A stretch of DNA of 64,000 nucleotides from Haliclystus octoradiatus (Eukaryota; Cnidaria; Staurozoa; Stauromedusae; Haliclystidae). Position 1 is the stretch's first letter, and each line of letters opens with the position of its first letter. The stretch lies in the NCBI GenBank assembly GCA_916610825.1, contig OU744449.1, positions 3,980,001 to 4,044,000 on the forward strand. Reading direction: 5' to 3'. This document shows, in pieces, positions 46,201-49,200 of this stretch. The position numbers were made by a program, and so were the translations under genes. The notes under the pieces are model-generated. The model ran no database searches and was not told the origin of the DNA. It worked only from the letters and a program-made list of their open reading frames with translations.

Positions 46201-49200
46201 CCAGAGATATGAACGAGGGCAAGAAATATCCAAACTTATTGCTACACCAGGCACATCCTTGACTATCCGATGTGTTTGTTCCGCACTATTGTTCTCTAAG
46301 AAATCCTTACCGATGTTGGCGAAATGGCCAAATAACATTTTTATTTTCGCCAACATCGGATCGATATGATTTGCCTTCTTCTGATTGGTCAACAATTACG
46401 CAACTCAGGATTGGCAGAGTCGATTGACTTGTTACCAACCCTCAAAATATCAACCGCTGTTGGCGAAAATGAATTCTATATGAATCCTATCAATGTTAGC
46501 GAAATAAAAAGTCGTTTGTTAAGATAGCATTTGGAATTTAGTTAATGTGAAAGCCTGGGAGAAAAATCTCAACAGCCGTACTTTGATATAATGTTTTCAG
46601 ATTTCAAAGTAACTATGACATAGCTTTTTGTCTTGATGTTTCATTGTTTGGCAGGTATCAGATGGGTGTTTTATGCCGAATCCAACATCAGGCCTTGAAT
46701 TCCTTTTTGGTAGAACTAAATAATGACTGATCAAAAAGGTTTCTGGCCTGAGTGCAGACAGAATTTTTCTCTGTATAATTCGTCTGCGCATTAGCACTGA
46801 GTTTGATTGTTTGCACTGAGCCTGCGTACTGATTGTTCTTTCCACTGCCACGGTTTTTGTAGTGTGTTGTAGTTGGCTGATAAAATATGTGAATAAAGCA
46901 AGGCAATTGAAAAAAATAGTAATGATAGGAAAAACCACACTATGCAAATATTTATTTAACATAAATTCAGTAGAAACACTCAATATGTGATACTCAGTGC
47001 CAATATGCAGACAGACTATACCAACAAAAAGTCTGTTCTATTGCTATTTTTCTCCTAAATTGCATTACACTGTTTGTCAAATTGTGGTGTTTCCAACGAC
47101 TTTTAAGACCCGCAATCGCTTGATGAATCCCCCTCCCTACTTTGAACGTCATCATTATTATTATTATTATTATTATTATTATTATTATTATTATTATTAT
47201 TATTATTATTATTATTATTATTATTATTATTATTATTATTATTATTATTATTATTATTATTATTATTATTATTATTATTATTATTATTATTATTATTATT
47301 ATTATTATTATTATTATTATTATTATTATTATTATTATTATTATTATTATTATTATTAATAAAATTTATGTTTATCTAATAGCAGATAATATAGGGCTCT
47401 ATGTCTTCATTTGACAGAGCGGTAAATAATAATAATATATGGCGAAAGAGTCAAAGAATACACATTCTTTACTGTTACTCAAGTTTCACGCTTTTCACAG
47501 CGATCTTCAGACAGATTTTTTACTCAATGAAAAATATACATGATATCTACGTTCTATGGTCAACTCTCCGTAATGCTGCTTTCTATTGTTTAATTAATAC
47601 AATGCTATTGTTATTGCTATTGTTAATACAAGTGGTGGAAAAATGTGATGGTTTCCTTTATTCTCAGTAAATGATTATTTATTATGTTTTTGATTTATTA
47701 AAATTGGACAGGTAATATTTATTTTCGTGACGACATTAACAATAGCAATAACAATAGCATTGTATTAATTAAACAATAGAAAGCAGCATTACGGAGAGTT
47801 GACCATAGAACGTAGATATCATGTATATTTTTCATTGAGTAAAAAATCTGTCTGAAGATCGCTGTGAAAAGCGTGAAACTTGAGTAACAGTAAAGAATGT
47901 GTATTCTTTGACTCTTTCGCCATATATTATTATTATTATTATTATTATTATTATTATTATTATTATTATTATTATTATTATTATTTCTAAATCAAATAAT
48001 CTTAGCAAAATATTTAATAGTAACACAATCAAAGTCAGCTATAGCTACACTAATAATATGGACACAATTCTGAAAAGTCACAATAACAAAATAATAAATA
48101 GCGAAAATAACAACACAACCGATGCCATGCCTTGCAATTGCAGAAACAAAAGATCCTGTCCATTTGATAATCGATGCCAAATGAAGGGAATCATTTACCA
48201 GGCAAAAGTCACCACTCCAGAAGACGAAGAGGGAAAGTGCTACATCGGTTTAACAGAGGATACATTTAAAGTGCGCTATACACAACACAAGTCAACATTT
48301 AAACACAGAAAATATAGCACTAGCACACAGCTATCAAAATATATTTGGGAGCTGAAAGACAACAACAGCGAGTATACAGTCAAATGGTCACCCATCGCCA
48401 ATGCTAAGCCATATAGCAACATTTCAAAAAAGTGTCATTTATGTTTATTGGAAAAATATCACATTATATGCTCAAAAGAAAAACTATTAAATCGAAAATG
48501 CGAACTAATTTCTAAATGTCGTCACGAAAACAAATTCTATTAAGCTAATTTTAAAGAAACAAAAACATAATAATAATCAACCAACTGATGTAATAGGAAA
48601 CAATTTTATTTATTTTATCATCTATTTTCAAAAGAAAAACCTACACCATTGTATTTAAACAATAACACTATAATTAACAATAGCGCGGCATTCACGTATA
48701 GTCTGAAATAGGAGTTAAAACCATCATGTATGTATACATTTTTCATAGAATAAAAAACTGTCTGATGATCGCAGTAGCGTGAAACTTGGAGTTACAGTAA
48801 AGAATGTGTTTTCTTTGATCTATCACCATTATTATTATTATTATTATTATTATTATTATTATTATTATTATTATTATTATTATTATTATTATTATTATTA
48901 TTATTATTATTATTATTATTATTATTATTATTCTCACACAATTCAATGCATGGCCTTCACAGAAGAAATGACCCTCCGTTACAAAAACAATTAGTAATAT
49001 CCAACTTTAACACATCAGGAATCATCGAATCATCTTTCAGTTTGGAAGTCAAAAATTACTAACATTCATCAGTCCTTTATGAATGAGTTACATCAGACTT
49101 TCAGTTTATTTCTATGTCAGGTTGTACCTGAAAATACTGTTGGCCTGTCTGATGATGTCTAGAAAAGGAAACTCAAACATCTAGATAGTGATATGAAACA

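Follow-up and report, generated by a model that had tools for sequence, protein, structure and literature searches.

Two Penelope-like insertions of related families in one (ATT)n array of Haliclystus octoradiatus, with ends suggestive of two-site priming on a sense RNA

Within the window analysed here, a 64,000-nucleotide stretch of the Haliclystus octoradiatus assembly, a segment initially annotated as one Penelope-like element (PLE) with three terminal repeats and interleaved (ATT)n tracts reads, on sequence comparison, as two PLE insertions from two related families (A and B) in one older (ATT)n array. We propose, with a probability of about 0.77, that both families inserted in pre-existing (ATT)n DNA by priming at two sites of a sense RNA, the cDNAs running off at the start of that RNA or at its ribozyme cut. 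The two-family composition, the target array, the two kinds of outer end (S and L) and the clusters of inner ends can be read directly from the DNA. The more detailed proposal, that one sense RNA templates both cDNAs, that its two AU-rich sites mimic the target and that the shared 5' end is set by the promoter or by hammerhead cleavage in vivo, is in our judgement only slightly better than an even bet. All counts refer to one genome and one assembly.

Composition of the segment and identity of the families

Read along the plus strand, an ATT array is followed by the tail and left arm of B, the right arm of B, a second ATT array, the A copy and a third ATT array. The features are as follows.

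47154..47358, plus strand: (ATT)68, left part of the presumed target array; a pure tract in the same strand orientation as 47925-47985 and 48828-48932
47357..47737, minus strand: left arm of family B, with the L (tail) end on its left and the inner end at -300 in the element; 100% identity to copy L041 over 381 nt
47474..47510, minus strand: family B hammerhead core, predicted to cut between positions 47476 and 47475; core match and covariation
47735..47937, plus strand: right arm of family B, with the S end on its right and the inner end at -190; 100% identity to L041 over 203 nt
47834, plus strand: initiator-like TTTTTC|A of family B, at -91 in the element, where B insertions elsewhere tend to have their inner end; probable RNA 5' end
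47852..47888, plus strand: hammerhead core, family B, predicted cut 47886|47887 (GUA^ACAG); core match and covariation, with genomic breaks at the site
47925..47985, plus strand: (ATT)20, B's own S site plus presumed target array between the two insertions; a pure tract
about 47980..48828, plus strand: family A 5'-truncated copy (ORF end, 3' UTR, terminal repeat); 98.6% identity to copy L002 over 849 nt
47986..48540, plus strand: frame of family A for a C-terminal portion of the PLE protein, in which Cys motifs and GIIY...CYIG...R/H...E...N occur; stop at 48541-48543
48745, plus strand: initiator-like TTTTTC|A of family A, at -82 in the element, where A insertions elsewhere tend to have their inner end; putative RNA 5' end
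48762..48795, plus strand: hammerhead core, family A, predicted cut 48793|48794 (GUU^ACAG); core match and covariation
48828..48932, plus strand: (ATT)35, A's S site plus right part of the presumed target array; a pure tract

The B insertion (47357-47937) is two-armed and head-to-head, and its left and right arms overlap by 3 nt. The inverted 203-nt arms of the initial annotation were recovered (47425-47627 and 47735-47937, 100% complementary, with 107 nt between them), as were its pure (ATT)n tracts at 47154-47358, 47925-47985 and 48828-48932. The gap of ~70 bp that it placed between the inverted arm and the outlying tract is real, and consists of B's own tail. What fell was the assignment of three terminal repeats to a single element, since the inverted arms belong to family B (100% identity, L041) and the 3' repeat to family A (98.6% identity, L002). 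Just right of the element, the window also holds a 105-nt direct repeat with 97% identity (49276-49380 and 49959-50063).

The open frame in the window closes 9 residues short of the end of the L002 protein. Because the L002 copy extends upstream into an RT-like region carrying YRDDG, we regard this frame as the end of a 5'-truncated A copy. We take its GIIY...CYIG...R/H...E...N set to be GIY-YIG-like from a reading of the motifs. The A and B proteins are 74% identical and have in common DIENFYPSI, MGSYDGAEV, YRDDG and GIIY..YIG, presumably the motifs of a PLE-type RT and a GIY-YIG domain. A Pfam search of the A and B proteins and the window frame recognised neither RT nor GIY-YIG, so that the annotated zinc-finger/GIY-YIG frame is borne out as an open frame with Cys and GIIY/YIG-type motifs and goes unrecognised at the domain level. 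A PDB sequence search with the B protein gave no match, and single-sequence structure prediction of the endonuclease end reached a pLDDT of 31.5.

As in other PLEs, B terminal repeats stand in tandem on one strand (2516 bp apart at C5:10370606/10373122 and 2519 bp apart at C4:29213865/29216384), and in L041 the sequence continues from the terminal repeat into the ORF. Further PLE features are inverted pLTRs with an optional tail, seen across 63 two-sided events, short target duplications (8-11 bp, at sites whose flanks let them be recognised) and a hammerhead motif in the pLTR. The annotation as Penelope-like with hammerheads is thus upheld by tandem spacing, inverted arms, tail, 8-11 bp duplications and hammerhead covariation, with Pfam and Rfam silent. 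We rejected an identity as metazoan retrozymes (non-coding tandem units of about 170-400 bp), as the units are about 2.5 kb long with an ORF and the short copies are inverted pairs.

Both families are abundant in the 261.9-Mb genome, where an exact 21-mer from the A short end occurs 231 times and an exact 22-mer from the B short end 810 times. Among full-length terminal-repeat matches, the best 40 per family show 99-100% identity to the window repeats in A and 100% in B, and therefore both families hold young copies. Among the first 100 A matches listed, 54 make 27 head-to-head pairs less than 250 bp apart, with 0 tail-to-tail at such a distance.

Six hammerhead-core matches were found in the window (expected from shuffles: 0.01), three of them at 47474-47510, 47852-47888 and 48762-48795. 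When 19 of 40 distinct cores from the genome were aligned, the structure paired in 91.4% of cells with 14 compensatory cells (0/500 shuffles), and pairing dropped to 26-45% once the structure was slid along the alignment. Helix III is invariant among the 19 cores and so gives no covariation evidence, and the outer pair of helix II is unpaired in 15/19. By free energy, folding of A did not stand out (z 0.48), and that of B did so only modestly (z -1.55). The motifs have the conserved core and covariation-backed stems of a minimal type I hammerhead, and to this extent the annotated full hammerhead in each of the three repeats stands. Its expected recognition by a covariance model failed: the Rfam hammerhead models gave no gathering-score match over the window and none at E up to 10 over 47400-48950. 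This silence is in line with the description of PLE hammerheads as minimal versions in the available part of one report (PMC6155905).

More short PLE-type insertions, from at least 2 other families, lie at 25990-26560 with head-to-head arms and (TA)16 between neighbours; they carry hammerhead cores at 26004-26037 (minus), 26099-26132 (plus) and 26509-26542 (minus) and look S/L-ended by eye. The only gathering-level Rfam match in the window is a weak tRNA-like one at 11588-11658 (29.7 bits, cut-off 29), possibly a tRNA-derived repeat.

Insertion sites and outer ends

Genomic copies were sampled from the first 100 matches listed per family, from which 80 regions were taken (40 A and 40 B). Most of these regions hold close pairs or single ends, which gives short copies too much weight and long insertions too little. 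Merging overlapping regions by coordinate left 168 distinct arms, of which 126 fall in two-sided events; the other 42, among them 27 that carry an S or L end, are partnerless and did not enter the pairing counts. Flanks were classified in 59 events (L090, L094, L117 and L127 were left out), with four repeat units within 30 nt as the criterion for an array.

ATT arrays flank both sides in 35/59 events and one side in 7/59, (TA)n is in contact in 13/59, and neither is present in 4/59. In all 35 of the two-sided cases the array keeps one strand orientation across the insertion. The S end meets outward ATT in 23/58 and AAT in 15/58. Counted by side, ATT arrays occur at 77/118 insertion sides. The same one-sided test is passed by 0.26% of window positions outside 47000-49100, and by 0.84% when these are restricted to an AT content of at least 80%. 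For the 24 events without two-sided ATT arrays, a script found a flank repeat of at least 5 nt in 22, many of them in (TA)n and hence weak proof of target duplication. Duplications of 8-11 bp were seen at L093, L124, L108, L102, L128 and L130, and none at L086 and L140.

From these flanks, the (ATT)n array is best read as a pre-existing target. Of the two possibilities raised in the initial annotation, a preferred target and tracts made during insertion, the first agrees with the single orientation in 35/35 and with both orientations at the S end, and the second does not. The preference for ATT holds among other copies, and copies without ATT flanks exist, so that target specificity is not for ATT only but includes (TA)n. 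Arrays of (ATT)n are very abundant in this genome: overlapping (ATT)15 matches number 367,122 and amount to about 1.1 Mb or more, and there are 2157 array ends of a single type. We also considered whether families with a TA-like S site end in (TA)n, and set this aside as resting on few cases, beside A or B copies or in the window, in a biased sample.

In the tandem unit, the sequence continues from the (ATT)4-5 of the terminal repeat through TACCGCTCTG... and an AU-rich stretch to the ORF about 130 nt downstream. Genomic insertions end either directly after the (ATT) run (the S end) or at the end of the tail (the L end). In the RNA, S corresponds to (AUU)4-5, 33-38 nt 3' of the predicted hammerhead cut, and L is AU-rich and lies about 70-85 nt further 3', before the ORF. 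A helix between the RNA 5' end and the S site that would close the hammerhead, suspected by eye in A, failed across families.

The two outer ends of an insertion are almost always of opposite kind. Sixty of 63 two-sided insertions have one S and one L end (57 by script and 3 by eye: L090 and L094, in which an arm was split in the alignment, and L132, the reference itself), one is S/S (L140), and two (L117 and L127), in which the outer end of one arm is undefined, were put in neither class. Opposite ends were thus found in 60/61 scorable events (binomial p 5e-17), and the choice between S and L arms is unbiased because the search word is present in both arm types. The B copy in the window follows the same rule, with L at left and S at right.

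Inner ends, ribozyme cut sites and a possible mechanism

Inner-end positions were counted from the S end. They fall at -82..-80 in 32/75 A arms, with the other A ends scattered, and at -91/-90 in 28/75 B arms, with a second B cluster at -40..-38 (9/75). The main cluster of each family lies on or beside the final A of TTTTTC|A, which precedes the hammerhead core by 16-18 nt, and TTTTCATT-like sequence at this initiator-like site recurs in several other families. Together, the ends and the TTTTCATT-like motif suggest that TTTTTC|A is a transcription start.

The second B cluster coincides with the predicted hammerhead cut (-38). Genome-wide, the base that immediately precedes ACAGTAAAG fails to match at 46 B places, compared with 3 at a single control site five nt on. 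Twenty of these 46 candidates were taken for inspection, and 18 were true breaks and two point variants (L159 and L167); L152 and L166 have a flank in common and may represent a single insertion. Five further candidates of the 46 (L094, L111, L115, L118 and L124) start at -38, so that breaks were real in 23 of the 25 candidates inspected. Family A gave only 4 candidates, and of the two inspected L070 was real and L079 a point variant. The difference between families in candidate counts (46/810 for B, 4/231 for A) has a Fisher p of 0.013, uncorrected and confounded. On the suggestion that the ribozymes could process read-through transcripts, the genome has B insertions that stop at the predicted cut and little of the kind in A. 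In a third family, C, the cut site gave 8 matches, six of which may be point variants; at G000:C1:4616273-4616328, the coordinates of the pair C1:4616273-/4616300+ imply that C arms meet exactly at the predicted cut, without filler.

We then compared the two arms of each event, with inner ends classed as start-type (T), hammerhead-type (H) or other (59 events; 34 A and 25 B). Both arms tend to share the same inner end (HH 5, HT 0, TT 24, H-other 3, T-other 15, other-other 12), where shuffling within families gave means of 0.62 for HH, 7.1 for HT and 16.8 for TT (each p at most 5e-5). The HH joints in L069, L111 and L124 read CTTTACAGTAAAG, as might result if two cDNA ends that had stopped at the cut were annealed by their nearly self-complementary last five bases. 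In 58 S/L events, the S arm reached further 5' in 18 (10 by at least 20 nt), the L arm further in 10, and the two lay within 5 nt in 30. Both arms may come from one RNA molecule, rather than from two RNAs in the same state.

The proposed sequence of events is as follows. The element endonuclease would make a staggered cut (8-11 bp) in A/T microsatellite DNA, and the 3' ends of both target strands would prime reverse transcription on sense element RNA, one strand at S ((AUU)4-5) and the other at L (AU-rich). Each cDNA would extend toward the RNA 5' end and halt at the initiator-like start just upstream of the hammerhead or, if the RNA had self-cleaved, at the hammerhead cut, and the two cDNA ends would then be joined head to head. 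Priming at S and L in the 5' leader would give a short, two-armed strong-stop insertion; priming at S and L in the downstream terminal repeat of a tandem transcript would allow the body to be copied, often truncated, as in both window copies. Endonuclease preference cannot be told apart from priming by base pairing: of the two ends of each ATT array, one has AAT facing outward and lacks homology to (AUU)n.

Several other explanations were weighed against these data. Inverted arms could arise by snap-back, in which a single cDNA (or an antisense RNA) would fold over and serve as its own template, as has been proposed for Adineta Penelope in the part of that report at hand (PMC3846280). Shared end points, some palindromic joints and the 10/58 events with a longer L arm, a pattern that includes the window B copy, fit such folding. 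However, snap-back of an L-primed cDNA cannot make an S arm longer than the L arm, as found in 18/58 (10 by at least 20 nt), unless L was shortened later; a cDNA primed at S would lack the tail; and an antisense RNA has no hammerhead, yet ends lie at the sense cut site. We consider snap-back unlikely. The B breaks could also be stalls of the RT on a folded ribozyme rather than ends of cut RNA, and the ribozyme sequence is foldable (B z -1.55). If the RT stalled, stem I would stay uncopied and ends would be expected some nt 3' of the cut, where the control gave 3 matches compared with 46. Many arms read the whole hammerhead through to -91/-82, and stalling seems quite unlikely as the source of these breaks.

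It is very unlikely that the RT made the (ATT)n tracts at insertion by recopying (AUU)4-5 repeatedly, in the manner of telomerase. Such synthesis would account for the position of the element's (ATT)4-5 exactly where long tracts start, and PLE RTs and telomerase have a common ancestor according to the portion of PMC3846280 available. Against it, the arrays keep one strand orientation on both sides (35/35), the S end meets (AAT)n in 15/58 though its own repeat reads ATT, variant repeats occur in arrays beside near-identical copies (L002, L054 and L055), and 13/59 insertions are in contact with (TA)n. A single composite, with B arms and A body mobile as one unit, would explain why these adjoin within a common array, but it is extremely unlikely: the repeats belong to different families, each family has its own ATT-flanked insertions elsewhere, and among the matches listed no other place matches the whole query.

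If one sense RNA does template both cDNAs, the hammerhead would trim the templates, and PLE genomes would keep a readable record of its activity. The hundreds of near-identical copies make the predictions countable, as S/L ends, shared inner ends and breaks at the ribozyme cut.

Relation to known elements

AT-rich simple targets, inverted pLTRs, the tail and PLE hammerheads are already known from the consulted portions of PMC3846280, PMC11167929 and PMC6155905. How PLEs form head-to-head inverted copies, and what the hammerhead does, are left open in the available text of the first two. Among titles and abstract openings, we found no report of the S/L rule, of shared inner ends or of insertions ending at the hammerhead cut; earlier full texts may hold part of this.

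The Poseidon PLE PAc of Anolis carolinensis resembles the families described here in having one ORF with RT and GIY-YIG, a pLTR and a hammerhead near the ORF start (PMC11167929). As described in the excerpts of that paper, its endonuclease prefers ATT and cuts both strands, and its tail is delimited by two neighbouring internal start sites of RT, which our S and L ends resemble. The PAc start sites are not homologous to the cut DNA, whereas S and L are AU-rich like the target, and PAc shows no strand difference in start site, whereas the two ends here use different sites. PAc did not depend on hammerhead cleavage in vitro, and none of its RNA reads terminated at the cut, in what could be consulted of that study (PMC11167929), whereas some B insertions end there.

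In the accessible text on Adineta vaga (PMC3846280), the endonuclease-bearing Penelope likewise has head-to-head inverted pLTRs, a tail on one inverted pLTR, 8-10 bp duplications and simple AT-rich targets. That report invokes self-priming, possibly on antisense RNA, whereas our data favour two separate primings on sense RNA. Metazoan retrozymes, in the passages available from PMC7229834, are also small genomic copies with type I hammerheads and suspected PLE mobilisation, but they are tandem non-coding units with RNAs of about 170-400 nt, whereas the short copies here would be head-to-head products of a PLE leader.

Terminons, the telomere-attached PLEs, share with A and B a short repeat just 3' of the hammerhead that matches the target repeat (PMC6431247). 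The excerpts of that report ascribe a target-matching end to telomere-associated PLEs only, and a title that it cites terms such elements endonuclease-deficient. The Terminon target is the telomere (PMC6431247, as far as its available text goes), whereas A and B target an internal microsatellite and carry a GIY-YIG-like domain at the end of the ORF. By this analogy, the two families suggest an internal-microsatellite counterpart of Terminon telomere-repeat priming.
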